Below, piece by piece: positions 3,271 to 55,832 of a stretch of DNA of 64,000 nucleotides; the first letter of the stretch is position 1; every line of letters starts with the position of its first letter. The stretch lies in contig JALQYQ010000045.1 of assembly GCA_023262855.1 (NCBI GenBank), forward strand, positions 53,450 to 117,449. The letters run 5' to 3'. Below the pieces are notes generated by a model. That model was not told where the DNA came from, did not search any database, and saw only the letters and a program-made list of their open reading frames with translations. A program made the translations under genes and the position numbers. Source of the DNA: Crocinitomicaceae bacterium. GTDB taxonomy: Bacteria > Bacteroidota > Bacteroidia > Flavobacteriales_D > Crocinitomicaceae.

Positions 3271-4214
3271 AAATGTAAATAGCCAATATAGAATGTAGCC
3301 AAAACACCAATAAGCATACTAATTTTAATCAATGCATCATAGAGTTTTAGTTGCTTGGTTTTATTGGTGAAAATGAGAAAAATCACAACCAAATTAATCA
3401 AGGCGGCTATTCCAAATGGAATTGTTGCAGTCCAAAATTGTACGGTTCCAATGAACGAATTCATTTTTGTTAAGCTTATCCAAATGTAAAAAGCAGGTAG
3501 TACAAACAAAATCAGTGCAACCAAAAACAAGGACTTTTGTTGGCCTAATATCATCGGTAACGACTTTACATAAATCAATTTATCGCCTTCAACATCTTGA
3601 GCATCCTTAATAATTTCTCTCGCCATATTTTGAATGAAAGCAAAAAACGTTAACATGTAAATCAATGAATAGTCAATAATTGCAGTCCACGAATCTGGAT
3701 TAAACTCAGAATGTGCAGATGCATATGAATTTCCTACTTGAAAATAAATAAGGACCAAAAGTGGAATTAGAGCGGTTAATGTGGCAATCATAAAATTACC
3801 TATGAACACTTTACGCTTAAAATGCATTGAATAGAACCAAAGAGCATTAATCGAAACAAGATGTACAAAAACATACCAAAGAGATTGGTATTTAATGCTT
3901 AAATAGATTGCAATTGAAAAAGCAATTCCATTAAAAATCCAGTGCGTCAAAATAGCCCATCGACGATCAATATGTTTCGTAATAATTAGTTTTTCCGGTT
4001 TATTGATGCGATCTGCCTTAACGTCAAAATAATCGTTGATGATGTTTCCTCCAGCAGCAATTAAAACAGTTGATAGAACTAATAATAAAAAATCAATCCA
4101 GTTATCATCGACCTTTTGAAAACGATTGGAATTCAATATAAAAAAGCGCACACCGTACATCGTAAGTACAATGATGGCTAAATTAATTGGTCGTATGAGT
4201 TTTAAAAAATGCAC
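3267..4214 (-). CDS. UbiA-family prenyltransferase
   Basis: Integral-membrane aromatic/polyol prenyltransferase of 315 residues with about eight or nine hydrophobic helices. The two Asp-rich Mg-prenyl-diphosphate motifs are present: NDYFDVKADRINKP and DAQDVEGDK. Flavobacterial relatives are often labelled geranylgeranylglycerol-phosphate geranylgeranyltransferase, but the acceptor cannot be read from sequence; a menaquinone or haem-type role is less likely because those genes have different neighbours. It starts with GTG, overlapping the TAG stop of the preceding PorE-like gene by one base, and overlaps maf by four bases, so this is a tightly coupled operon. Confidence 0.85.
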   Translation of the reverse strand: MHFLKLIRPINLAIIVLTMYGVRFFILNSNRFQKVDDNWIDFLLLVLSTVLIAAGGNIINDYFDVKADRINKPEKLIITKHIDRRWAILTHWIFNGIAFSIAIYLSIKYQSLWYVFVHLVSINALWFYSMHFKRKVFIGNFMIATLTALIPLLVLIYFQVGNSYASAHSEFNPDSWTAIIDYSLIYMLTFFAFIQNMAREIIKDAQDVEGDKLIYVKSLPMILGQQKSLFLVALILFVLPAFYIWISLTKMNSFIGTVQFWTATIPFGIAALINLVVIFLIFTNKTKQLKLYDALIKISMLIGVLATFYIGYLHL

Positions 4215-6226
4215 TATTTTATAATCTTATATTCTGTTCGTCGATTCGATTGATGAGCAGCTTCTTTAGCTTCTTCAGTTGCTAATTTAGCAATTTCTGC
4301 GTCACTTACGATAGTTTTTGTTTCTCCATACCCTTTGAAAGTCATTCGTTTAGGGTCAATACCTTTGGCAACAATGTAATCATATACCGCTTTTGCACGG
4401 TCATTCGATAAGGTCAAGTTCGCTTTGTCGTCACCTCGTGTATCTGTATGTCCACCAATTTCAATTTTTAAGGTTGGGTTTTTTACAAGGAAATCATACA
4501 ATTTATTTAACTCAACATTCGATTCTGAACGAAGTGTTGATTTTCCTAAATCGAAGAATACATTTGCCAGTAGAGTAGGAACGTCACTTGTAATTGGAAT
4601 CATTGGTACATCCATGTGAATTGATTCCAATCCATCTTTTACTGTCATGTTGAAATTTTTAGAAAAGAAGTTGTATCCCGGATAACTCACATTTAAGGCA
4701 TATTCCTGATTTACAGGTAGAGAAACTAAAAATGCTCCGGTAATTTTATCTGCTTCCGCAAAAATCACTTCTTTTCCAGTTTTCAAATCGATTAATTGGA
4801 ATTTACCTGGAATTGGTTTTTTATCAGTTGCATCGAAAACAATTCCGTCAAAATAAAGTGTTTTCGTTGGCCTAAATTCTTCTGGCATTTCGAAGTAATA
4901 GATATCTAAGTCTCCGTATCCTCCAACACGATCTGAAGCAAAGAATGCAATTTCACCGTCGGCAGAAACCAACAATGAATTTTCATCATATTTAGTGTTA
5001 ATCGGATATCCTAAGTTTTCTGGGTTGGTCCATGAACCATCAGGATTCATTTTTGACATATAAATATCAGACCCTCCCATACCAACATGTCCGCGTGATG
5101 CAAAATACAAGGTTTTTCCATCGGGATGGATCAATACAGATTCCTCTTCCATGTAAGTATTAATGTTTTTTGGAAGTCGCTCAGCAGTTGACCATTGACC
5201 ATTGTCTAGCAGTCTTGTCACGAAAATATCCGAATCAACTGGTTCTCCTTTTTTACTCACGCGTCGAATGAAATAAAGTGTTTTTCCATCTGCAGAAAGC
5301 GAAGGTTGTGATTCCCACATTCCTGTATTCACATTTCCAGGTAAGTTTATTGGGTCCAACCAACGTGATCCATTTCTATGTGTATAGAACATATCGCAGC
5401 TTCCTTTACCTGTTCTATTTTCCCCATATTCTTGATTATTCGTAACATCTTCAGCACATGCAACAAAAATCAGTGAACGGCCATCAGCTGAAATAGTTGG
5501 TGCACCTTCATTCATTGTTGTATTGATATTAACTGGCATTGGTACTGCTGTTCCCCAAATATTCTTTTCTAACATGGAAACATAAAAGTCTTCTTGCTGC
5601 TTGTAAGCTGAACGATCATCATCAATACGACGCGTAAACAAGAGCATTTTTCCATCAACTGTAATTGTTGGGAAATACTCAGGATCTTTAGTGTTTATAC
5701 CAGGTCCAATATTTATTGGATTGAATTTTTGTGGGTTTTGAATCGATTCTAAAGCGAAAACACAGCTTTCTTGCATGGTATACGCTTGTCTAACCAAGTC
5801 TGGATTTGCATTTCGGTTTCGAATGTAAATATCAAGGTTTTTAATTGCTTTATCGTAATCGCCAATAGCTTGCTGTAAATTAGCCAAATAGAAATAAGTG
5901 CTTCCTGTTGGACTATGATTTGGATTGATTGCCAAAGCCGCTTCAAAGTGTTTGATTGCGTTAGGATAATCTCCCAGTATTTCATAGAATTCACCTGCAT
6001 TCATGTGAGCTTCCCAAAATTTTGGATCTTTTTCCAGTGCTTTGTTCATTAAATCAATTCCTGACATGTAATCAGGACGATTTGTTTTTGGGTCAATTTG
6101 ATTAGGCGCTTGAATTCCAGCCTCAAACAGTTTAATTGCCTTTTTGTTGGAAGTTGAATAGCCTGTTTGTGCTGTTGAGCAACTAGAAATTAAGGCAATC
6201 GAAAATAAAATAAATAGAATTCTCAT
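4214..6226 (-). CDS. PorE-like lipoprotein: TPR, beta-propeller, CPD-like and OmpA domains
   Basis: A 670-residue lipoprotein (lipobox ISSC, Cys16). Domain order: TPR-like helices ~25-165, a PD40/WD40-like propeller ~170-445 with repeated motifs such as FASRGHVGMGGSDIYMS, a carboxypeptidase-regulatory-like domain ~450-535, and an OmpA C-terminal domain ~555-670 with IGGHTDTRGDD and SNDRAKAV, which retain the peptidoglycan-binding Asp and Arg. This is the architecture of PorE, a periplasmic T9SS component in Porphyromonas gingivalis. It is related in layout to the four-gene array at 45-54 kb but lacks the four-cysteine region found there. It lies 2 bases after queE and 1 base into ubiA. Whether it is the T9SS PorE or a paralogue is not decidable here. 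Confidence 0.85.
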   Translation of the reverse strand: MRILFILFSIALISSCSTAQTGYSTSNKKAIKLFEAGIQAPNQIDPKTNRPDYMSGIDLMNKALEKDPKFWEAHMNAGEFYEILGDYPNAIKHFEAALAINPNHSPTGSTYFYLANLQQAIGDYDKAIKNLDIYIRNRNANPDLVRQAYTMQESCVFALESIQNPQKFNPINIGPGINTKDPEYFPTITVDGKMLLFTRRIDDDRSAYKQQEDFYVSMLEKNIWGTAVPMPVNINTTMNEGAPTISADGRSLIFVACAEDVTNNQEYGENRTGKGSCDMFYTHRNGSRWLDPINLPGNVNTGMWESQPSLSADGKTLYFIRRVSKKGEPVDSDIFVTRLLDNGQWSTAERLPKNINTYMEEESVLIHPDGKTLYFASRGHVGMGGSDIYMSKMNPDGSWTNPENLGYPINTKYDENSLLVSADGEIAFFASDRVGGYGDLDIYYFEMPEEFRPTKTLYFDGIVFDATDKKPIPGKFQLIDLKTGKEVIFAEADKITGAFLVSLPVNQEYALNVSYPGYNFFSKNFNMTVKDGLESIHMDVPMIPITSDVPTLLANVFFDLGKSTLRSESNVELNKLYDFLVKNPTLKIEIGGHTDTRGDDKANLTLSNDRAKAVYDYIVAKGIDPKRMTFKGYGETKTIVSDAEIAKLATEEAKEAAHQSNRRTEYKIIK

Positions 6227-43652: not shown

Positions 43653-44264
43653 TTATTTCACTTTGAATTCATACATTTTAGTTCCTTCTAAATATCCCTC
43701 TAATACATCTCCAATTTGAACAGGTCCAACTCCAGCAGGCGTTCCAGTGAAAATTAAATCACCTTTTTTCAAGGTCATGAATTGTGAAATATATGCAATG
43801 ATTTGATCGATTGTAAAAAGCATATCCGATGTATGTCCAATTTGCGCTGTTTCTTGATTCTTTTTTAGTTCAAAAGATAATTTCGTTAAGTCTAAATTGG
43901 CAACTGGAATAAATTGTTGTGAAATAGGGGCACTTTGTTCGAATGATTTTGCAATTTCCCACGGCAATCCTTTTTCTTTGCATTGTTGTTGTAAATCACG
44001 CGCAGTAAAATCAATTCCTAATGTCACATCTGAATAGTATTTGTGTGCAAATTTTTCAGAAATGTTTTTTCCAACCTTATCGATTCTAACAACTAGCTCA
44101 CATTCATAATGCAGATCTTTTGTAAAGTCGGGGAAATAAAAATCATATCCATCACGTAAAATAGCGGTGTCTGGTTTCATGAAAAATACTGGAGCACTAG
44201 GGACTTCAGCTTTCATTTCTTTTGCATGATCTGCATAATTTCTGCCAATACAAATGATTTTCAT
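43653..44264 (-). CDS. Fumarylacetoacetate hydrolase-family protein
   Basis: A 203-residue FAH-family enzyme. It opens MKIICIGRNYADHAKEM, with the metal-binding HYECELVV and GIDFTARD segments and the late FTGTPAGVGPVQIGD motif. Short members like this act on 2-oxo acids such as oxaloacetate or acylpyruvates; the exact substrate is unknown. It starts one base after the DnaQ-like gene stop, so the two are an operon. Confidence 0.93.
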   Translation of the reverse strand: MKIICIGRNYADHAKEMKAEVPSAPVFFMKPDTAILRDGYDFYFPDFTKDLHYECELVVRIDKVGKNISEKFAHKYYSDVTLGIDFTARDLQQQCKEKGLPWEIAKSFEQSAPISQQFIPVANLDLTKLSFELKKNQETAQIGHTSDMLFTIDQIIAYISQFMTLKKGDLIFTGTPAGVGPVQIGDVLEGYLEGTKMYEFKVK

Positions 44265-44265
44265 T

Positions 44266-45111
44266 TTATTTAAATTTATTCTTTAATGCTTCTAATTTAC
44301 TTGCAATATCCGTTTCCTTTGATTCTTTGGCTTTTTCTCTTTCCGATTTAATTTTATCCATTTCACGGCGCAAACATTGCTTTGTATATAAAGGAAAATC
44401 GGCATCAAGCATCCAACCATAATAACCAGGCTCAATTTGAGCAACTTGCTTAATTGTACGTCCTTTGTGCTTACCAAAGTTATAGATTGCTTCACCTTTG
44501 TCATCAATTGCTAAACGACCAGCGAAATCCAATAAATTGTAATTGCCTGCTTTTGAAAATTCAGATAGGTAAATCACATCATTCTTAATGTCAGGATATC
44601 GCTCAATCTGTGCTTTTAAGACGTCCCACGTTGCTTTCGCATCATACAAGGCATTATGAGCGTTTTCAATCGTTTTGTTGCAGTAGAATAGATAAGCTGC
44701 TGCCAACGTGCGTTGTTCCATTTTGTGAAAAATGTTCTGAACATCCACGAATCTTCTTTTTGATATATCGAAATCAGATCCAGCACGCATTAACTCTTCA
44801 GCAAGAACAGGAATATCGAATTTGTTAGAGTTGTAACCAGCTAAATCGGCATCGCCAATGAATGCAACAATTTCGTTTGCTAACTCTTTAAAAGTAGGAG
44901 CATCTTGAATGTCTTTGTCATAAATTCCATGTATTTCACTAACAACAGCAGGAATTGGCATTTCTGGATTAACGCGTTTGCAGTAATTTTCTTCTGTACC
45001 ATCCGGTTGAACTTTGATAATGGCAATTTCAACAATTCGATCACTTGTAATATTTGTACCGGTTGTTTCCAAGTCAAATATGGCAAGCGGTCTTTCTAGA
45101 CTTAAATTCAT
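44266..45111 (-). CDS. DEDDh 3'-5' exonuclease (DnaQ-like)
   Basis: A 281-residue exonuclease with motifs I AIFDLETTGTN, II GYNSNKFDIPVL and III HNALYDAKATWDV (DEDDh set complete). The C-terminal ~100 residues contain GRLAIDDKGEAIYNFGKHKGRTIKQV, a small extra domain seen in several Bacteroidetes homologues. The ORF track extends to 45177, but a promoter box at 45133-45126 makes the ATG at 45111 (MNLSLERPLAIFDLE) the start. It may act as Pol III proofreading subunit or RNase T-like enzyme. Confidence 0.92.
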   Translation of the reverse strand: MNLSLERPLAIFDLETTGTNITSDRIVEIAIIKVQPDGTEENYCKRVNPEMPIPAVVSEIHGIYDKDIQDAPTFKELANEIVAFIGDADLAGYNSNKFDIPVLAEELMRAGSDFDISKRRFVDVQNIFHKMEQRTLAAAYLFYCNKTIENAHNALYDAKATWDVLKAQIERYPDIKNDVIYLSEFSKAGNYNLLDFAGRLAIDDKGEAIYNFGKHKGRTIKQVAQIEPGYYGWMLDADFPLYTKQCLRREMDKIKSEREKAKESKETDIASKLEALKNKFK

Positions 45112-45125
45112 ACAGAAGTTTTTGT

Positions 45126-45133
45126 CAAAGATA
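45126..45133 (-). promoter_or_regulatory. -7 promoter box of the dnaQ-like gene
   Basis: Minus-strand TATCTTTG, exact TAnnTTTG; predicted leader about 11 bases. Confidence 0.6.
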
Positions 45134-45148
45134 ATGAAGTAAAAAACA

Positions 45149-45174
45149 AAAAGTCCGAACAATGCCGGACTTTT
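45149..45174 (-). terminator. Terminator T1 of the PorE-like array
   Basis: Nine-bp stem AAAAGTCCG / CGGACTTTT, 8-base loop; minus-strand T run follows. Shares the AAGTCCG stem with T2 and T3. Confidence 0.88.
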
Positions 45175-45193
45175 CATTTTATGTTGATAATTC

Positions 45194-47290
45194 TTATTCA
45201 GTTTTCAAACCAACGAATTGGTAAGGACGATATTTTTTCGTGTTTCTTCCATCTTTCACATATTCTGGACCATCAACGATTGCAGAAACAATCACCACGT
45301 TTACACGATCTTTAAACTCCGGAATCGACTCAAAATAAGTTTGTAAGTCATATTTCATATTCTCCGCACGAATTTGTGTCAATTTCTCATTTGTTTCGTA
45401 CGTTTTTGTTGGTACGTGTGATGCAGAAGAGTAAACTTTAATTGTAATTGATTTACGTCCTTCTTTTAATTGCGCTTCAACTTGTTTTACAAAATCTTTC
45501 AAATCACCTTTTGAAGTCGATAATTTGTTTTTGTTGTAATCGAAGTAGTGCATGTACTCAAGATTTTTGTAGGCAATTACATTTACTGTGTCAATCAAAG
45601 TAACTGTATCTTTCGGTACTGAAATAGTTCGTGTAGGAACATCTAACATCAATTCACGATAAATTTCTTGATAAGCTTCATCACAATTGGTTGTAAATGA
45701 TTCTTCGTACATCGTTAAGTTGTCGCTTGCATTGTAATAGGCGATTTTATATGTTTTACAAGGTTTTAATCCAGTCATGAACAAACCATCTCTCAAACGT
45801 GGATAAATTGTTTTGTTTTTTTCATATTCTTCACAATCATCACAAGTCAACTTCACATTGATCGCGAAATCCTCTGGTAATTCAGATCCATCCGTTGTTT
45901 TGATTTTACCTTTAAAGACAGCAATGTTGTTTACGCCTAAGAAGTCATTGTGAATTTCATAAATGTCTTTTTCTCCATGACCGTCTTTTCTGAATGAAGT
46001 CATGTATCCTCTTAAACCATCAATTGTTGTTGTATAGAAAATATCATCATTCGTTGAGTTGAACGGATAACCGATGTTTTTAGATTCAGACCAATTTCCG
46101 TCTTCCAATAAATCACAAACAAGGATGTCAAATCCACCAATACTTTTATCGCCATTCGAAGAGAAATACAATTTTTTATTGTCTACAGAAACGAAAGGAG
46201 CATCTTCATCATATGCAGTATTTACACGTGGTCCAAGGTTGATCGGATTTGACCAAGTACTGTCACCTTTGCGTTTAGACATGTAAATGTCACGTCCACC
46301 AAAACCACCTGGACGATCTGAAACAAAGAACATTCTTGAACGGTCAGGAGAAACCATGCAATGTGTTTCCCAGTATTTTGTGTTGATATCCTTGTCGTCA
46401 ACTAATTGAATATCATTGAATTTTCTTCCATAGAAATCAGTGTAGTAAATATCTCCAGATCCGGTAGAGTCTTCGTATAAATAAATTCTACGTTCGTCAG
46501 TACTAACAGCAATTGTTGCTTCATTTCTTTCAGGTTGACAAAATTCTAAACGAATTGGAGCCATCCAAGTAGAATCATAATCCATATATGAGACATAAAC
46601 ATCCTCAGGATATTGATTAATCGCTGGATCACGGAAGGTTTCTGTTGCACCGTTTTCCCATGGTCTTCTTGAAGTAAAATAAAGTGACGATCCATCCAAG
46701 GATACAACTGGTGCATAATCAGGGAATTGGCCATTTACAGTTCCGCCAATGTTCTTTAAATAGACATTCACTGGTGCAGCCATCAATTGTTTGGCCTGTT
46801 CACATTGAATTAAACGTAATTTGGCAACGGGAATTAATTCCGATTTATTTTTTGTTGTCGCTAAAAACTTTTCATAGTTCGCTTTTGCGCCATCGATATT
46901 TTCATTTAAGTGATAGCAAGTTGCTAAGTGGAAATATGCATCGGCAGGAGCACTTTTTTCACCAACACCATACATGTCATAGTTCGCATCAACATCTTTA
47001 ACAGCTTTTTCGAAATAAGGAATGGCATTTTCATACTCTTTTCGAATTTCTAGCATTAAATAACCTTTGCGGTAATTGTAATTCGAACTTTCTGGTTTTA
47101 TTGTCAGAAGTTTATCAGCCAACATTTCTGCATGATACAAATAACCTTCTTGTGTCATACGAGAGCTCTCAGTAACCAATTGTTGTTCTGAACCATTTTG
47201 AACAATGTTCAATACTTGTTCATCAGTCAATTGGGCATGAACGAAAACTGGAAGTAAAAAAATGAAGCTAAGTAATTTTATTATTCTCAT
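45194..47290 (-). CDS. PorE-like protein, array copy D, diverged OmpA domain
   Basis: A 698-residue exported protein (signal peptide MRIIKLLSFIFLLPVFVHA, no lipobox). TPR-like region ~20-180, propeller ~185-460 (VSPDRSRMFFVSDRPGGFGGRDIYMS), then a four-cysteine segment (TCDDCEEY ... PCKTYKI ... TNCDEAYQ). The C-terminal ~120 residues are OmpA-like (FDYNKNKLSTSKGDLKDF) but the HTD motif is replaced by SAS, so the Asp that binds diaminopimelate is gone; the Arg (TQIRAEN) stays. The CPD-like domain of copies A and B is missing. Very similar to copy C. Confidence 0.88.
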   Translation of the reverse strand: MRIIKLLSFIFLLPVFVHAQLTDEQVLNIVQNGSEQQLVTESSRMTQEGYLYHAEMLADKLLTIKPESSNYNYRKGYLMLEIRKEYENAIPYFEKAVKDVDANYDMYGVGEKSAPADAYFHLATCYHLNENIDGAKANYEKFLATTKNKSELIPVAKLRLIQCEQAKQLMAAPVNVYLKNIGGTVNGQFPDYAPVVSLDGSSLYFTSRRPWENGATETFRDPAINQYPEDVYVSYMDYDSTWMAPIRLEFCQPERNEATIAVSTDERRIYLYEDSTGSGDIYYTDFYGRKFNDIQLVDDKDINTKYWETHCMVSPDRSRMFFVSDRPGGFGGRDIYMSKRKGDSTWSNPINLGPRVNTAYDEDAPFVSVDNKKLYFSSNGDKSIGGFDILVCDLLEDGNWSESKNIGYPFNSTNDDIFYTTTIDGLRGYMTSFRKDGHGEKDIYEIHNDFLGVNNIAVFKGKIKTTDGSELPEDFAINVKLTCDDCEEYEKNKTIYPRLRDGLFMTGLKPCKTYKIAYYNASDNLTMYEESFTTNCDEAYQEIYRELMLDVPTRTISVPKDTVTLIDTVNVIAYKNLEYMHYFDYNKNKLSTSKGDLKDFVKQVEAQLKEGRKSITIKVYSSASHVPTKTYETNEKLTQIRAENMKYDLQTYFESIPEFKDRVNVVIVSAIVDGPEYVKDGRNTKKYRPYQFVGLKTE

Positions 47291-47378
47291 AGTAGAGTGG
47301 TTTAAATAAACTAAAACTTAATTAATTGAAGGTAAACGACAAATAATGTAAATAGTTTCGTTTACCAAAAATAAAAAA

Positions 47379-47401
47379 AAGTCCGAATAAATTTCGGACT
47401 T
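47379..47401 (-). terminator. Terminator T2 of the PorE-like array
   Basis: Perfect 9-bp stem AAGTCCGAA / TTCGGACTT with 5-base loop; minus-strand T8 run follows. Lies after copy C. Confidence 0.88.
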
Positions 47402-47427
47402 CTCTTTTTGAATTGATTAACTATTCA

Positions 47428-49527
47428 TTATTCTGTTTTCAAACCAACAAATTGATATGGTTTGTATTTCGATTTGTTTTTAGCATCATTCGTGTATTCA
47501 GGCCCATCAACTATTGCAGTAACAATCACAACATTTACTTTTCCTTTGTAAAGTGGATTAGATTCGAAATAGCTTTGTAAGTCATATTTCATGTTTTCAG
47601 CACGGATTAATGCCAATTTTTCATTTGATTCATAATCTTTTGTTGGTACACGTGAAGCAGATGAATAAACATTGATAGTTACGGATTTGCGGCCTTCTGA
47701 CAATTGTTTTTCAACATCTTTTACAAATAGTTTTAGTTCACCTTTTGCAGTACTTAACTTGTTTTTATTATAGTCGAAATAATGCATGAATTCGATGTTT
47801 TTATAGGCAATAACCGTAATTGTATCAATTTCTTTAACGGTATCTTTAGGAACAGAAATTGTTCTTGTTGGCACATCTAACAACAATTCTCTATAGATTT
47901 CTTGATATGCTTCATCACATTTAGTCGTAAATACTTCTTCGTACATTGTTTGGTTATCAGTTGCGTTGAAGTAAGTAATTCTGTATGTTTTACAAGGTTG
48001 AATACCTGTCATAAACATTCCATCTCTTAAACGTGGAAATAAAATTTTCGATTTTTCACTTTCAGAACATTCGTCACATGATAATTTAAAATTCATCGCG
48101 AAATCCTCTGGAAGTGTCGAGCCATCGGTTGTTTTGATTACACCTTTGAAAACAGCAAGATTTTTAACACCTAAGAAATCATTTTTGATTTCATAAATAT
48201 CTTTTTCTCCATTTCCTCCTGGTCTGAATGATGTTACATATCCTCTCAATCCATCTACAGTTGTGGTATAATAGATGTCGTCGTAAGTCGAATTGAATGG
48301 ATAACCAACATTTGTAGGATCACTCCAAATTCCATTTTCCTGCATGCTTGAGACAAGAATATCAAAACCACCTATACTTTTTTCTCCATTCGAAGCAAAG
48401 TACAATTGTTTGTTATCAATGCTTAAGAATGGAGCATCTTCATCATTTTTTGTGTTGATATTAGGTCCAAGATTAATTGGTGTTCCCCAAGTTCCATCTG
48501 TGTTCTTTTTACACATGTAAATATCTCTGCCTCCAAAACCACCTGGACGATCAGATGAGAAGAAAGCCATTGTTCCGTCCTGAGAAACCATGAAATGTGT
48601 TTCCCAAAATTCAGTATTAATGTTTGTATTATCTAACAAACTTATTGCATTGAATTTACTGGCATAGAAATCTGAGAAGTAGATGTCTCCAGATCCTGTA
48701 ATGTCTTCGTACAAGTAAATTCTTCGTTCATCTGTACTCACGGCCATAGTCGCTTCATTGCGTTGAGCCTCACAAAAATCTAGTCTTTTTGGAGTATTCC
48801 AAGTAGAATCAGACGATAAATAACTTACATAAACATCTTCAGGATAAGCATTTGTTGCTGGGCTTCTTAATAATTCTGTTTCACCATTTTCCCAAGGACG
48901 CTGTGAAGTAAAAAAGATTGCAGAACCGTCTAAAGAAACAACAGGAGAGAACTCTGCATATTGACTATTAAATTTCGTTCCCATATTATTTAAAACGATT
49001 TTTACAGGAGCTTGTTTTAATAATGCAAGTTGATCCAATTGAATTAATCGCAATTGAGCTACTTCAATCAATTCTGATTTTGACCGAGAAGTGTTAATGA
49101 ATTGTTGGTATGTTTCACGTGCTTTAGCAATATTCTCATTCAAATGATAACATTCTGCTAAATGAAACAATGCATCTGTTGGGGCACTTTTCTCATTCGA
49201 GCTATACATGTCAAAATTTGCATCAATTTTAGTGATAGCAACCTCTAAAAATGGAATAGCTTGGTTTGCGTCTTTACGAACCTTTAATACCAAATAACCT
49301 TTACGGTAATTGTAATTTGGACTTGTTGGATTTAATGAAATAAGTTTATCAGCAATCATTTCTGCTTGATAAAAGAAACCATCTTGAATCATTCTTGAAT
49401 TCTCGGTGACAAGTTTTGTTTCAGATCCTGTTTGAATCATTTTTAACACTTGTTCATCCGTTAATTGCCCGAAAAGTAGGGTAGGGCAAAGAAAAAGTAT
49501 ACAAAGAAAAGTACTTTTAAAACTCAT
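47428..49527 (-). CDS. PorE-like protein, array copy C, diverged OmpA domain
   Basis: A 699-residue exported protein (signal peptide MSFKSTFLCILFLCPTLLFG). Same order as copy D: TPR-like ~20-180, propeller ~185-460 (FSSDRPGGFGGRDIYMC, FASNGEKSIGGFDILV), four-cysteine segment (SCDECSES ... PCKTYRI ... TKCDEAYQ) and an OmpA-like end lacking the HTD Asp (NVYSSASRVPTK). Copies C and D are the same length and share the altered C-terminus, so they come from a recent duplication. No perfect -7 box lies before the ATG; terminator T3 separates it from copy B. Confidence 0.88.
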   Translation of the reverse strand: MSFKSTFLCILFLCPTLLFGQLTDEQVLKMIQTGSETKLVTENSRMIQDGFFYQAEMIADKLISLNPTSPNYNYRKGYLVLKVRKDANQAIPFLEVAITKIDANFDMYSSNEKSAPTDALFHLAECYHLNENIAKARETYQQFINTSRSKSELIEVAQLRLIQLDQLALLKQAPVKIVLNNMGTKFNSQYAEFSPVVSLDGSAIFFTSQRPWENGETELLRSPATNAYPEDVYVSYLSSDSTWNTPKRLDFCEAQRNEATMAVSTDERRIYLYEDITGSGDIYFSDFYASKFNAISLLDNTNINTEFWETHFMVSQDGTMAFFSSDRPGGFGGRDIYMCKKNTDGTWGTPINLGPNINTKNDEDAPFLSIDNKQLYFASNGEKSIGGFDILVSSMQENGIWSDPTNVGYPFNSTYDDIYYTTTVDGLRGYVTSFRPGGNGEKDIYEIKNDFLGVKNLAVFKGVIKTTDGSTLPEDFAMNFKLSCDECSESEKSKILFPRLRDGMFMTGIQPCKTYRITYFNATDNQTMYEEVFTTKCDEAYQEIYRELLLDVPTRTISVPKDTVKEIDTITVIAYKNIEFMHYFDYNKNKLSTAKGELKLFVKDVEKQLSEGRKSVTINVYSSASRVPTKDYESNEKLALIRAENMKYDLQSYFESNPLYKGKVNVVIVTAIVDGPEYTNDAKNKSKYKPYQFVGLKTE

Positions 49528-49614
49528 AATTTAGTAGTTAAATCAAAAAAATAATTACACTTTTTAGGCGCAATAACTACCGTATGGGTTTCAAATCGAG
49601 TGTAAAGTAAAGAA

Positions 49615-49641
49615 AAAAGTCCGATACAAGACCGGACTTTT
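49615..49641 (-). terminator. Terminator T3 of the PorE-like array
   Basis: Nine-bp stem AAAAGTCCG / CGGACTTTT with 9-base loop; minus-strand T run. Lies after copy B. Confidence 0.88.
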
Positions 49642-49646
49642 ATAAA

Positions 49647-52001
49647 TTATTTTTTTACGATTCTAAATTCAGTTCGTCGATTAAGTTGATGCTCTTCAGG
49701 AGAACACGTCGATTCTGTTTCTCCTTCGCATTCACATTTGTTCACTAATTTACTTTCTCCATAACCTTTTCCGTAGATTCTTTCTGGATTCGTAATGCGT
49801 GCTTTGATGTAGTCTGCAGATGCTTTTGCTCGTCGATCAGATAAATCTTCATTGTATTGTGCAGATCCTCTGCAATCTGTGTGAGAACCTAGTTCAATTT
49901 CCATGGTTGGATTGTTGTTCATCACTTTTACAATTTTATCTAATTCACGTTTAGCATCTTTACGAATTGTAGCTTTGTCGAAATCGAAATAGATATTTTT
50001 AATGCCATATAGACTCGCAAGATCAGCTCCAATTTCTGATTTGTTCATATCTACTGTTACTTTGATTTTTTCATCAGCACCTAATTTTTGTGTTAAATCA
50101 TACGTTTGTGTGATGTAATCATCTTTTGAAACTTTCAATTGAATATCCATTGGTTCACCAATAAATCGGTTTGTCAACGGTTTCATTTTGAAGTTTCCAT
50201 TTGCATCAGCATACAGAGTCTCAATTACTTTGTTCGTTCTCAAATCAATTACTTCAATTTTAGAATTAGGAAGGATAGCTTTCGTTTCCTTATCAGCAAC
50301 AATTCCGTTAACAATGTAATTTTTAACTGGAGTAATTGTTTCTTTTTTAGCATTTAGAATAACCTCCTTCGTAATTTCTTGGTACTGGTCAGTGCACTCT
50401 GTTTTGAATTCCTCTTCATACATGTTCACTTTGTCATTCGCATTTACGTATGCCAAAGTATATGTTTTACAAGGCTGAAGATTCGTAATAAATACACCAT
50501 CTTTCAATCTTGGGTAAATCGTTCTTGTTGTAGCCTCATCTGTACAATCTTTGCATTTAAGCGTCATTGCAACTGGGAAATCTTCAGGTAATGGCGAGTT
50601 GTCGTAGTTTCGAATCAATCCTTTTAAAACTGCTAAACTTTTGACTCCAAGAAAATCATTGTTTACTTCGTAAATGTCTTTTTCACCATATCCGTCTCCT
50701 CTGAACGAAGTTAAATAACCTCTTAGTCCATCAATAGTTGTTGTGTAGTAAATGTCATCATTCGTTGAGTTAAATGGATAACCCAAATTACGCGATTCTG
50801 ACCAGGTTCCATTGTCCAATAAATCTGCTGTTAAAATGTCGAAACCACCGATACTTTTTTCACCGTTAGAAGAGAAGTATAACATTTTATTGTCAACAGA
50901 TACGAACGGAGCATCTTCATCAAATGCCGTATTAATTTTGTCACCTAAATTGATCGGCTCTGACCATGTTGTATCTCCCGTTTTTTTGATGACATACAAG
51001 TCGCGTCCTCCAAATCCACCTGGACGATCTGATGAGAAAAAGATGCGAGAACCGTCATGACTCATCATACAATGTGTTTCCCAAAATTCAGAGTTTAATC
51101 CTGAAATGTTCAAAGCCTTGATATCATTGAATTTTGCGGCATAGAAATCTGAGTAATAAATGTCTCCTGAACCTGTAGAATCCTCGTACAAATAAACCCT
51201 TCTTTCATCTGAACTCACTGCAATTGTTGCTTCGTTTCGTTTCGGTAAACAGAAATCGAGTTTCATTGCTTCAGTCCAAGAAGAATCATAATCCATGTAA
51301 GAAACATAAACATCTTCTGGATATTGATTGATTGCTGGATCACGGAAGTTTTCTGTAGAATTGTTTTCCCACGGCCTTCTTGATGTAAAATACAAAGCTG
51401 ATCCATCCAATGAAATGACAGGAGAATAATCTGGATAGTTAGTATTTACAGATTTTCCAAGATTTTTTAAAGCGACGTTAATTGGAGCGGCGATTGCTTT
51501 TTTAGCGTTTTCACATTGCGCAATTCTTAACTTTGCCAGCGTAATTGTCTCTGATTTACCGTTTGAGTTGGTAAGAAATAAATTATAATACTCAATCGCT
51601 TTTTCCATGTTACCGCTTAGTTGATAAGCATTACCTAAATGGTAAAAAGCATCTGCTGGAGCACTTTGTTCTTTCACACTAAACGCATCGTAATGTGGCT
51701 TTGTATCCTTAATTGCTTTGGTTAAAAAAGGAATTGCTGTTTGATAATCCTTTCTGATTTCTAATGCTAAAAATCCTTTACGATAATTGTAGTTTGGACT
51801 TTCTGGTTGAAACGTCAACAATTTATCTGCAATCATTTCAGCTTGAAAAAAACTTCCTTCAGCCATCATTCGTGAGTTTTCACTCAATAATTTATCCTCA
51901 TCCGAATTTTTAATTAATTCTTTTACTTGATCATCAGTCAATTGTGAAAAAGAAGTGAACGATGCCAAAAGGGCAAAAAAGATTATTAAACGTGGTTTCA
52001 T
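49647..52001 (-). CDS. PorE-like protein, array copy B, complete architecture
   Basis: A 784-residue exported protein (signal peptide MKPRLIIFFALLASFTSFSQ). TPR-like ~20-185, propeller ~190-460 (FFSSDRPGGFGGRDLYVI), four-cysteine segment (KCKDCTDE ... PCKTYTL ... TECTDQYQ), CPD-like domain ~565-645 (NGIVADKETKAILPNSKIEV), and a normal OmpA domain ~660-784 (IELGSHTDCRGS, SDRRAKASADYI, GKGYGESKLV) with extra cysteines (NKCECEGE). It is the closest relative of copy A and keeps the peptidoglycan-binding residues. Own promoter box 46 bases upstream. Confidence 0.9.
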   Translation of the reverse strand: MKPRLIIFFALLASFTSFSQLTDDQVKELIKNSDEDKLLSENSRMMAEGSFFQAEMIADKLLTFQPESPNYNYRKGFLALEIRKDYQTAIPFLTKAIKDTKPHYDAFSVKEQSAPADAFYHLGNAYQLSGNMEKAIEYYNLFLTNSNGKSETITLAKLRIAQCENAKKAIAAPINVALKNLGKSVNTNYPDYSPVISLDGSALYFTSRRPWENNSTENFRDPAINQYPEDVYVSYMDYDSSWTEAMKLDFCLPKRNEATIAVSSDERRVYLYEDSTGSGDIYYSDFYAAKFNDIKALNISGLNSEFWETHCMMSHDGSRIFFSSDRPGGFGGRDLYVIKKTGDTTWSEPINLGDKINTAFDEDAPFVSVDNKMLYFSSNGEKSIGGFDILTADLLDNGTWSESRNLGYPFNSTNDDIYYTTTIDGLRGYLTSFRGDGYGEKDIYEVNNDFLGVKSLAVLKGLIRNYDNSPLPEDFPVAMTLKCKDCTDEATTRTIYPRLKDGVFITNLQPCKTYTLAYVNANDKVNMYEEEFKTECTDQYQEITKEVILNAKKETITPVKNYIVNGIVADKETKAILPNSKIEVIDLRTNKVIETLYADANGNFKMKPLTNRFIGEPMDIQLKVSKDDYITQTYDLTQKLGADEKIKVTVDMNKSEIGADLASLYGIKNIYFDFDKATIRKDAKRELDKIVKVMNNNPTMEIELGSHTDCRGSAQYNEDLSDRRAKASADYIKARITNPERIYGKGYGESKLVNKCECEGETESTCSPEEHQLNRRTEFRIVKK

Positions 52002-52046
52002 ATCAATGAATGGTATCTTGTTGGTTTTGAATAGCTAAATTATATG

Positions 52047-52054
52047 CAAATGTA
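52047..52054 (-). promoter_or_regulatory. -7 promoter box of array copy B
   Basis: Minus-strand TACATTTG fits TAnnTTTG; predicted leader about 42 bases. Copy B can therefore be transcribed separately from copy A. Confidence 0.5.
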
Positions 52055-52057
52055 ACT

Positions 52058-54403
52058 TTAATTTTTTACAATACGAAATTCGGTACGACGATTTGCCTGA
52101 TGCTCTTCTTCTGAACATGAAGAATTTACTGTTCCTTCACAACCACAATCGTTGACCAATTTCGATTCTCCGTATCCCTTTCCATAAATTCGAATAGGAT
52201 CTTTTATTCGTGCTTTAATATATTCGGCGGATGCTTTTGCTCGTCGATCTGAAAGCGATAAATTGTATTTCATCGAAGCACGACAATCTGTATGAGAACC
52301 TAATTCAATTACTAAAGTTGGATTGTCGTTCATGATTTTTACAATTTTATCCAATTCTATTTTAGCATCTGGACGAATTGCTGATTTATCCAAGTCAAAA
52401 TAAATAGGCTTTAAATCCAATGTTTTAGCTAAATCAATTCCAATTTCAGGTTTTTCTAACATGTAGTTTAAATGAATGGCTGTATCCGCACCAAGTGTTG
52501 TCATTAAATCGAAAGTTTGTGTCATGTAACCTTCTTTTGATACACGTACATGGAAGTAGATGCTATCGCCAAACCTTTTATCCTCTAAAATAGTTGAATA
52601 AAACTCTCCTAATTTCGCAGTGGAAGTCATCTCATAGATTTCCTGAGATACTGGATTCATAAATTCAACTTTTGAACCTTCTAATTTATTTCCTGATTTT
52701 TTGTCTGCAACTAATCCGTCTAACGAATAACGCTTGATTGGAATGATTCTGCGTTTTTCTACGTCCAAAATAACTTCCTTGTATACTTCCTCATAACCTT
52801 TGCTACATGCTGTCACGAATGTTTCCTTGTAGGAAGTTTTCGACAGAGAATCGTATTTGAATGCAATTTCATATGAACGACAAGGTATTAATGAATATAC
52901 AAAAGAACCATCTCTTAAACGTGGAGACAAGTTGTATTCACGTGAGTCGTCGCAATTCGTGCATTTGATTGTTGCATAGACAGATTCCGGTAATTTACTT
53001 CCATCAGATGTTAGAATTCTTCCTTTTAAAACAGCAACATTATTAACAAGCAAAAAGTCATTTTCAATTTGGTAAATGTCCTTTTCTCCGAAACCATTTT
53101 TTCTAAAGGATGAAAGATAACCGTAATGTCCGTCAGCAGTTGTTGTATAATAAATATCGTCTCCAGTTGAGTTTATAGGATATCCTAAATTCACAGAGTT
53201 TGACCAAACATTGTTCTCGTCGCGGATCGAAACGAAAATGTCGAATCCTCCCATGCTATTTGGTCCATTACTTGAAAAGTAAAGTGTTTTATTATCTACA
53301 GCAATAAACGGTGAATCTTCGTCATAAGGTGAATTGATGACAGGTCCAAGATTAATTGGTTCACTCCATTGTCCATTCGGTAATTTCACTGTTCTGTAAA
53401 TATCTCTGCCACCATAACCGCCAGGACGATCTGAAACAAAATACATGTTTTGACCATCTGGAGTAACAGTACAATGAGTTTCCCAATATTTTGTATTTAA
53501 ATTTTTATAACCTAACAAGGTTAAAGCAGTAAAGTTATTGTTTTGAAAGTCAGAATAATAGATGTCGCCGAATCCTGTTCTATCTTCATAGGTATAGATT
53601 CGTCTTTCGTCTGGACTAATAGTTACAGTAGCTTCATTTAATTTTCCATCACAAAAACTTAAACGTTCAGGTGCTGTCCAATTCGAATTGAGTTCACCGT
53701 AGCTCACGTAAATATCTTCTGGATATTGATTCAGTTGTGGATCTTTAAAATCGTCTGTTGATTGATCTGCCCATTGTCTACGCGATGTAAAGTAAAGCGA
53801 ACTTCCATCGAGAGAAATAACAGGTGAATAGTCCGGATATACGCCATTTACAACATTCCCGATGTTTTTAACAATGGATTTTTTCGGGTTTGCAAGGTTG
53901 AATTTGGCAATATCACATTGTAACAGACGTAATTCAGCATTTTTGATTTGTTCAGACTTGTTACTCGATGAAGCGATGAATTTTGAATAATATTCTTTCG
54001 CTTTATCAATTTGTTCGTCTAAATGATAACAGCGTGCAATGTGATAATAAACATCAGTTGGAGCACTTGTTTCCTTTGACGAATACATATCGAAATTTTT
54101 ATCGACATCGACGAGTGCCTTTTGTAGATAAGGAAGTGCTGTTACCCAATCTTGTCGTGAATCTAAAACAATAAAGCCCTTTCTATAATTATAGTTAGGG
54201 CTTGAAGGATTTATTTGAAGAAGACGATCTACAACAATCTCTGCGAAAAAGAAATAATTTTCTTGCAACATTCTTGAAGATTCAACAACCAACTGCTCTT
54301 CTGGAGCTGTTTGAGTCATTTGTCTTACTTCAAACTCATTTAATTGTGTCATTCCTAAAAATGGCAACAATGTCAATCCGAAGATTGCAAGTATCTTTTT
54401 CAT
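52058..54403 (-). CDS. PorE-like protein, array copy A, complete architecture
   Basis: A 781-residue exported protein (signal peptide MKKILAIFGLTLLPFLGMTQ). TPR-like ~20-180, propeller ~185-455 (FVSDRPGGYGGRDIYRT, FSSNGPNSMGGFDIFV), four-cysteine segment (KCTNCDDS ... PCRSYEI ... TACSKGYE), CPD-like domain ~565-650 (DGLVADKKSGNKLEG) and a normal OmpA domain ~660-781 (IELGSHTDCRAS, SDRRAKASAEYI). First gene of the array in transcription order. It starts 34 bases after the E2 acyltransferase stop; no terminator is visible between them. Confidence 0.9.
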   Translation of the reverse strand: MKKILAIFGLTLLPFLGMTQLNEFEVRQMTQTAPEEQLVVESSRMLQENYFFFAEIVVDRLLQINPSSPNYNYRKGFIVLDSRQDWVTALPYLQKALVDVDKNFDMYSSKETSAPTDVYYHIARCYHLDEQIDKAKEYYSKFIASSSNKSEQIKNAELRLLQCDIAKFNLANPKKSIVKNIGNVVNGVYPDYSPVISLDGSSLYFTSRRQWADQSTDDFKDPQLNQYPEDIYVSYGELNSNWTAPERLSFCDGKLNEATVTISPDERRIYTYEDRTGFGDIYYSDFQNNNFTALTLLGYKNLNTKYWETHCTVTPDGQNMYFVSDRPGGYGGRDIYRTVKLPNGQWSEPINLGPVINSPYDEDSPFIAVDNKTLYFSSNGPNSMGGFDIFVSIRDENNVWSNSVNLGYPINSTGDDIYYTTTADGHYGYLSSFRKNGFGEKDIYQIENDFLLVNNVAVLKGRILTSDGSKLPESVYATIKCTNCDDSREYNLSPRLRDGSFVYSLIPCRSYEIAFKYDSLSKTSYKETFVTACSKGYEEVYKEVILDVEKRRIIPIKRYSLDGLVADKKSGNKLEGSKVEFMNPVSQEIYEMTSTAKLGEFYSTILEDKRFGDSIYFHVRVSKEGYMTQTFDLMTTLGADTAIHLNYMLEKPEIGIDLAKTLDLKPIYFDLDKSAIRPDAKIELDKIVKIMNDNPTLVIELGSHTDCRASMKYNLSLSDRRAKASAEYIKARIKDPIRIYGKGYGESKLVNDCGCEGTVNSSCSEEEHQANRRTEFRIVKN

Positions 54404-54437: not shown

Positions 54438-55832
54438 TTATAATTCTCTTTTTGGATCAAATTGTTCTAGATAATCTGCTACTCGTTTCACAAATTGTCC
54501 TCCTAATGAACCATCTACAACACGGTGGTCATATGAGTGAGAAAGGAACATTTTGTGACGAATTCCAATGAAATCACCATGTGGAGTTTCGATAACCGCA
54601 GGAACTTTTCGAATTGCACCTAAAGCTAATATTGCCACTTGTGGTTGATTGATGATTGGAGTTCCCATAACGTTTCCAAATGATCCAACATTCGTTACTG
54701 TAAATGTACCACCTTGAATGTCTTCAGGTTTTAATTTGTTGTTACGCGCATTGTTCGCTAATTCATTCACTGATTTGGTTAAACCAGTTAAGTTCATGCG
54801 ATCCGCATTTTTGATTACAGGAACAATTAAATTTCCAGAAGGTAAGGCAGTTGCCATACCGATATTGATATCTTTACGCTTAACGATAGATGTTCCGCTA
54901 ACAGATACATTGATCATTGGGAAGTCTTTAATTGCTTTTACAATTGCTTCGATAATGATTGGTGTAAATGTGATGTTTTCACCTTCGCGTTTCGCAAATT
55001 CACCTTTAATTTTATTTCTCCAGTTTACAATTTCAGTAACATCTGCTTCAACGTAAGAAGTTACGTGAGGAGCAACGTGCACAGACATAACCATGTGTTC
55101 CGCGATGATTTTACGCATGCGATCCATTTCAATGATTTCGTCTCCTGGATTTGGAACTACAACTGGGCCTTTAATATTCGCCAAGAATCCATTGTTCTCT
55201 GCTGGAATTGCAGCAGGGGCAGCAGTTGTTGACGTTATTACCGGTGAACCACTAGCTGTAGTTGCAGCAACTGTTGTAGTAGATGCAGCTGGTGCAGCAG
55301 CAGGAGCTGAAGTACGATTGTCAACGTAATCTAAAATATCTTTTTTCGTAACTCTTCCACCTTGTCCTGAACCAGCCAACGTTTCAAGTTCACCCATTGA
55401 AATTCCTTCTTTCTCAGCAATGCTTCGTACTAGAGGAGAATAGAATTTACCTGAAGGTCCGTTTTTGTCAATTAATTCAGAGCTTCCGTTCACGCTTGCA
55501 ACAACTTCTTGTACATTGTTAGCGATGGTTGTTGCAGCAGCAGCTGGACTTGGAGCACTATCTGCTGCAGGGGCAGGAGCAGCGCCACTTCCATCCGTTG
55601 AAATAATAGCGATTACGTCACCAACTTGAGCAACTTGGTCCACTTCAAAGAAACGTTGAACCAACACACCACCAGCTTCTGATGGCAATTCGTTATCAAC
55701 TTTATCAGTAGCAACTTCAACTAAAGGCTCATCAATTTCAACTGAATCACCAATGTTTTTCAACCAATTTGTAATCGTTGCTTCTGTAACGCTTTCTCCC
55801 ATTTTCGGAAGTCTAATTTCAATCTGTGCCAT
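54438..55832 (-). CDS. Dihydrolipoamide acyltransferase (E2 of a 2-oxo acid dehydrogenase complex)
   Basis: A 464-residue E2 subunit. N-terminal lipoyl domain with the modified Lys in VATDKVDNE; a long Ala/Pro-rich linker; a peripheral E1/E3-binding domain (SPLVRSIAEKEGIS ... GRVTKKDIL) and the catalytic domain with SYDHRVVDGSLGGQF. Substrate cannot be fixed from sequence: it may be the branched-chain or 2-oxoglutarate complex, and E1/E3 genes are not adjacent. Own promoter box about 33 bases upstream. Confidence 0.92.
   Translation of the reverse strand: MAQIEIRLPKMGESVTEATITNWLKNIGDSVEIDEPLVEVATDKVDNELPSEAGGVLVQRFFEVDQVAQVGDVIAIISTDGSGAAPAPAADSAPSPAAAATTIANNVQEVVASVNGSSELIDKNGPSGKFYSPLVRSIAEKEGISMGELETLAGSGQGGRVTKKDILDYVDNRTSAPAAAPAASTTTVAATTASGSPVITSTTAAPAAIPAENNGFLANIKGPVVVPNPGDEIIEMDRMRKIIAEHMVMSVHVAPHVTSYVEADVTEIVNWRNKIKGEFAKREGENITFTPIIIEAIVKAIKDFPMINVSVSGTSIVKRKDINIGMATALPSGNLIVPVIKNADRMNLTGLTKSVNELANNARNNKLKPEDIQGGTFTVTNVGSFGNVMGTPIINQPQVAILALGAIRKVPAVIETPHGDFIGIRHKMFLSHSYDHRVVDGSLGGQFVKRVADYLEQFDPKREL

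Follow-up and report, generated by a model that had tools for sequence, protein, structure and literature searches.

PorE, a component of the type IX secretion system (T9SS), connects PorP with peptidoglycan in P. gingivalis (PMC9143113), and the peptidoglycan stem is held by its side chains Asp576, Asn584 and Arg591 (PMC7192894). In F. johnsoniae, five operons combine a type-B substrate, an SprF-like shuttle and a PorE homologue, and for one of them a role as a static anchor in the wall has been suggested (PMC12618676). In C. hutchinsonii, the integrity of the outer membrane is maintained by CHU_0125, a TPR/PD40/OmpA protein of similar build (PMC5891637). Here we describe an array of related genes in a 64,000-nucleotide stretch of a Crocinitomicaceae genome, referred to below as the window.

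Layout and domain architecture of the array

The initial annotation of the window listed four consecutive minus-strand genes of 781, 784, 699 and 698 residues, and the coordinates of the open reading frames agree with it. The genes are four head-to-tail paralogues on the minus strand, from position 54403 to 45194, and are transcribed in the order L1, L2, S1, S2. The features of the locus are as follows:

54438..55832, minus strand: 2-oxoacid dehydrogenase E2 (dihydrolipoamide acyltransferase); conserved upstream neighbour, in 40 of the compared loci
52058..54403, minus strand: L1, 781 aa; TPR, propeller, Cys beta-sandwich, extra CPD-like domain and canonical OmpA domain
52061..52447, minus strand: canonical OmpA peptidoglycan-binding module of L1; HTD...N...R retained
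49647..52001, minus strand: L2, 784 aa; mosaic of an S-like N-terminal part and an L1-like OmpA module
49650..50036, minus strand: canonical OmpA module of L2; PF00691, 60.6 bits
49615..49641, minus strand: terminator-like hairpin and T run, after L2 and before S1
47428..49527, minus strand: S1, 699 aa; TPR, propeller, beta-sandwich, linker and SASxVPT OmpA-fold module
47431..47835, minus strand: SASxVPT module of S1 (residues 565-699), with Ser625 where canonical modules have the DAP-binding Asp; Asn635 and Arg642 retained
47373..47407, minus strand: terminator-like hairpin and T run, after S1 and before S2
45194..47290, minus strand: S2, 698 aa; layout as in S1, placed in the tree with S-type genes of other genus members
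45197..45598, minus strand: SASxVPT module of S2
44266..45177, minus strand: DnaQ-like exonuclease; conserved downstream neighbour, in 37 of the compared loci
43653..44264, minus strand: fumarylacetoacetate-hydrolase-like (FAH-like) gene; conserved flank, in 33 of the compared loci

TPRs and PD40 repeats were detected by Pfam in all four proteins (PD40 E-values from 6.4e-17 to 2.3e-22, the latter for L1), and a beta-sandwich segment containing Cys is common to them, so that the TPRs, the PD40-like propeller and the shared cysteine segment of the initial annotation all stand. L1 also matched OmpA (E 2.6e-12) and CarboxypepD_reg (E 6e-4), and both L proteins have one CPD-like domain more than S1 and S2. 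Signal peptides were judged by eye. Identity to L1 is 52% for L2, 45% for S1 and 49% for S2. Compared with a sister genome, dN/dS was 0.022-0.035, approximate values given that dS is near saturation, and this strong purifying selection on every member indicates that all four are functional genes.

A fifth gene of like layout had been annotated at positions 4214-6226 (minus strand). It does contain TPR, PD40 and OmpA domains, but it is only distantly paralogous, with 32% identity to L1, and lies on a separate branch of the tree, outside the array clade. By eye, its protein has a lipobox, and the gene is flanked by a QueE gene and a UbiA-type prenyltransferase gene.

The full AF2 model of S1 (mean pLDDT 86.5) has TPR helices at residues 24-171, a propeller at 178-448 and the Cys beta-sandwich at 457-558, then, beyond a disordered linker, the anchor module at 579-699. 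The order TPR-propeller-CPD-OmpA, which defines PorE, was thus found, for S1 as folds in the model and for S2 by homology, and the PorE-like architecture of the initial annotation stands. The likeness to PorE (PG1058 in P. gingivalis; NF052230) therefore extends over TPR, beta-propeller, CPD-like and OmpA-fold domains, and the C-domain of PorE (6top) is the nearest solved structure to the OmpA module of L2 (E 8e-23). The OmpA modules of both L1 and L2 are complete in ligand residues. PorE is a lipoprotein, whereas the sequences of the four array proteins have no lipobox Cys at the predicted signal cleavage site; S1 and S2 also lack the DAP-binding Asp. No PorP gene was found beside the array, here or in the sampled array loci, except in one distant locus (L223). 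The NCBIfam model T9SS_PorE gave 246 bits for L1, 249 for L2 and 147 each for S1 and S2, against a cut-off of 600, and the best-scoring NCBIfam model, that of the CHU_0125 family (NF053607), gave 156-314 bits against a cut-off of 620. Since both cut-offs failed and the lipobox is absent, the array proteins are, as judged from profiles and signal sequences, PorE-like and not PorE; the reading of them as PorE proper is not upheld.

In a Foldseek search, the S1 propeller was closest to TolB, including TolB in TolB/Pal complexes. The array proteins would thus combine a propeller and a Pal-like domain in one chain, but as single polypeptides with TPRs they differ from Tol-Pal. With the CHU_0125 family they share the TPR/PD40/OmpA architecture; compared with it they are longer, paralogous and modular, and the S type has no canonical OmpA domain. 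The main rival to a T9SS-related role is a general tether of outer-membrane integrity like CHU_0125, a single-chain substitute for TolB plus Pal that needs no special T9SS partner. It is favoured by the TolB-like propeller, by the Pal-like OmpA modules and by the CHU_0125 model outscoring the PorE model for the array proteins, though far below its own cut-off.

The variant anchor module of S1 and S2

An OmpA-like C-terminus had been annotated for all four proteins. This holds for L1 and L2, which matched PF00691 with 47.4 and 60.6 bits (gathering score 27.2), but for S1 and S2 it holds for the fold only. These two gave no PF00691 match at E 0.01, and their last ~135 residues matched no Pfam or NCBIfam family; as OmpA-domain proteins they were ruled out at the sequence level. 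Some distant homologues reached 18-20 bits for PF00691, below the threshold. The consensus of the S-type module is [YF]xYN ... SASxVPTxx[YF]x[ST]NxxLxxxRA ... VxGPxY ... YxxYQ[FY], from which we name it SASxVPT. In a single HHalign comparison with canonical OmpA domains it aligned with a probability of 88% (E 2.8e-6), with SSAS placed on SHTD. The AF2 model of the S1 module (mean pLDDT 93.9) has the order beta-alpha-beta-alpha-beta-alpha-beta, and its best Foldseek matches in the PDB were OmpA-like peptidoglycan-binding domains (3td3, E 3e-6, TM 0.61-0.66), with PorE's own domain 6top also among the matches (E 7e-5). According to these models, the C-terminus of S1 and S2 is an OmpA fold with an altered ligand site.

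The alteration is uniform. Among 130 distinct SASxVPT modules, the position of the DAP-binding Asp is Ser in every one, beside the VPT motif, and none has the Asp; Asn is retained in 129 and Arg in all 130. Among the OmpA-type modules compared, 96 of 97 retain the Asp. Next to Asn and Arg, S-x-V forms a new invariant element. L1 and L2 are members of PF00691, the family of Pal, OmpA and MotB, whereas the SASxVPT module has the same fold with two of the three ligand residues, an inserted VPT, and GPxY and YQ[FY] motifs instead of the HQxNRRTE end. No description of this variant was found within a limited literature search. Residues that are blank to Pfam and NCBIfam in S1 and S2, the last 135 of each, can now be annotated.

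Two side observations concern proteins outside the array. In two single-gene S-type homologues (L112:4941-7376 and L114:9938-12355), the C-terminal ~75 aa form a SPOR-like tail with sub-threshold PF05036 scores (E 0.012 and 0.031), hinting at possible glycan binding beside the variant module. A profile search of the family genomes further revealed proteins of ~650-680 aa, distinct from the array type, with two tandem SASxVPT modules:

G029:C1:719176-719883: tandem SASxVPT modules
G388:C12:200326-201036: tandem SASxVPT modules
G399:C126:74939-75643: tandem SASxVPT modules

Because Arg and Asn are retained and Ser is fixed, the pocket looks retuned rather than decayed. The opposite reading is that the module has lost ligand binding and serves a structural or protein-protein role, the S proteins being non-anchored partners of the L proteins. 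The disappearance of the very Asp that contacts DAP in PorE would fit such a loss, as would the usual position of an OmpA-type gene ahead of an S-type gene in Crocinitomicaceae. We consider it quite unlikely, as Arg and Asn are essentially invariant and are joined by the new invariant S-x-V, and as the S type is the only family gene in the slot in several lineages, two of these sole homologues bearing the sub-threshold SPOR tail. With Ser for Asp but Arg and Asn kept, S1 and S2 should instead bind an altered ligand in the same cleft.

Synteny, copy number and distribution

Across the class, the array usually occupies a slot with the order E2 lipoyl-acyltransferase, array, DnaQ-like exonuclease, FAH-like gene. 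This slot is an old one, and none of the genes conserved around it belongs to the T9SS, which again agrees with a general integrity tether. Its content varies from one to five genes among relatives, so the four genes of the window represent a lineage-specific expansion. Crocinitomicaceae usually have a single OmpA-type gene with a single S-type gene behind it, the window's genome and its sister genome G002 each have two of both types, and in some lineages an S-type gene is the sole family member in the slot. Solitary L2-type genes were seen at unrelated loci in two genus relatives (L093:7112-9466 and L096:7146-9497, in G005 and G023), suggesting that an L2-type gene has entered or left the slot.

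The terminator-like hairpins of the window set S1 and S2 apart from the L1-L2 pair. They recur in G002 and are rare elsewhere (8 of 43 intergenic gaps), and a conserved terminator between OmpA-type and S-type genes was rejected as a general rule on this count. The quadruple cluster is thus not a fixed unit. It had been suggested that the proteins could form a hetero-oligomeric envelope ring, which we take together with any other fixed machine of four parts. Clustering of related subunits in one direction would suit such an assembly, but copy number is variable, L2 orthologues stand alone elsewhere in G005 and G023, the array is divided by the hairpins, and no ring-forming domain was found in the array proteins. 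Nothing in the data supports the ring, and we regard it as extremely improbable.

The S-type C-module profile matched 91 of 296 Bacteroidia (class) genomes and 72 of 155 family genomes; in a phylum-wide draw it matched 2 of 297, one of them the window's own. Named relatives with the module belong to Crocinitomicaceae and other Flavobacteriales, mainly metagenome-assembled, and include Taishania and Brumimicrobium.

Exchange of anchor modules and the proposed role

On a tree of the TPR-propeller region, in which some branches are long and deep nodes are unresolved, the anchor type switches at least six times. AU tests rejected a single clade of OmpA-type proteins (p 5.5e-6) and the grouping of L1 with L2 (p 2.2e-9). 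L2 itself is a mosaic, with a propeller 74% identical to that of S2 and an anchor module 74% identical to that of L1.

The same modules occur in PorP cassettes. In 8 distinct genomes, a PD40 protein of 502-515 aa with a SASxVPT module adjoins a PorP gene, and in all three loci checked the upstream gene encodes a type-B T9SS cargo (CTD) protein. A Pfam scan of one of the 502-515 aa proteins showed an SprB repeat as well. In two such cassette proteins the module is 68-74% identical to S1/S2, whereas the remainder is only 26-29% identical. The window's own genome has only distant PorP matches (best 28-33%) to the 505-aa cassette. Its contig C69 has a cassette that encodes a type-B protein, PorP and a PorE-like protein. 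The OmpA module of the latter shares 67-69% identity with L1/L2, against 24% elsewhere, and nests among the array modules in the tree. A higher intrinsic conservation of the C-module was rejected as the source of this 70%/28% contrast, as array modules and whole proteins are both ~30-37% identical at the order level. Tree and identity patterns together indicate that anchor modules have been exchanged repeatedly, both among paralogues and with PorP cassettes. The exchange demonstrates interchangeable anchors, not common partners. The cluster itself is an expansion of an existing kind; new are the SASxVPT anchor variant and the movement of this module between array and PorP cassettes.

Compared with the F. 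johnsoniae operons (PMC12618676), the 502-515 aa proteins of the relatives hold the PorE-like position but carry SASxVPT in place of OmpA, and the array lies outside any such cassette. The window's genome has 21 PorP/SprF homologues above the cut-off (L039-L059), and for about eight of them a PorE-like or OmpA partner is encoded in cis. We also observed a 465-aa open reading frame on contig C1 (C1:22028-23425, L144:4029-5426) in which a PorP/SprF barrel is fused to a C-terminal OmpA domain (PF11751, 192 bits; PF00691, 83 bits), so that the two are linked within a single chain; immediately upstream lies the gene of a type-B T9SS cargo protein of 1339 aa (truncated). A link between array and T9SS was also sought in co-occurrence with SprA, which proved uninformative, as nearly every genome of the class sample (288 of 296) has SprA.

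Lineage-specific expansion and module shuffling could also be the marks of an array that provides dosage or sequence diversification without division of labour, for example in the escape of exposed envelope parts from phages or predators. This appears very improbable, given that the dN/dS values between the sister genomes carry no sign of diversifying selection and that the proteins are predicted to be periplasmic. The integrity tether, for its part, leaves unexplained both the repeated paralogue expansion and the presence of array-type modules in PorP/type-B cassettes at 67-74% identity, and we rate it as somewhat unlikely. The earlier idea of alternative T9SS anchors gains indirect support: array-type C-modules sit on PorE-position proteins immediately downstream of PorP/SprF and type-B genes, in relatives and on contig C69, but the array has no PorP neighbour.

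From the shared layout and the interchangeable anchors, we infer that the array proteins are wall-anchoring adaptors, and as no PorP gene lies near the array they would act in trans. We therefore tentatively favour the view that the four genes encode PorE-like adaptors acting in trans on PorP/SprF-type barrels, with S1 and S2 binding an altered ligand. L1, L2, S1 and S2 would reside in the periplasm, where the N-terminal TPRs and the TolB-like propeller may bind a partner in the outer membrane, the likeliest candidates being the 21 PorP/SprF barrels, which display type-B T9SS cargo, while the C-terminal module would anchor the complex. The canonical OmpA domains of L1 and L2 are predicted to grip the diaminopimelate (DAP) of peptidoglycan stems. 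In S1 and S2, where Arg and Asn are kept but a longer loop bears Ser instead of Asp, the cleft may bind a chemically different form of the stem peptide or another carboxylate ligand. The array has expanded through tandem duplication within an old syntenic slot, and its anchors are swapped among paralogues and with PorP cassettes.

A bolder extension, which we consider rather unlikely, is that SASxVPT represents an undescribed class of wall-reading domains for stem forms beyond the reach of canonical OmpA, such as cross-linked (acylated) or amidated DAP. The replaced Asp would be the residue that contacts the DAP amine and the kept Arg the one that grips the carboxylate, and by exchanging OmpA and SASxVPT modules Bacteroidia would determine the position in the wall at which a PorP-type surface complex is anchored.

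In this freshwater flavobacterium, the sister proteins thus probably link the outer membrane with the cell wall. Proteins of the PorE type are believed to determine whether a T9SS surface protein stays fixed to the wall or travels along the gliding track. If the adaptor proposal is true, SASxVPT would be a second kind of anchor for this system, interchangeable with the canonical domain even in PorP cassettes. It is a hitherto unannotated domain present in about a third of the sampled Bacteroidia genomes, and its variant site offers exact residues to probe.
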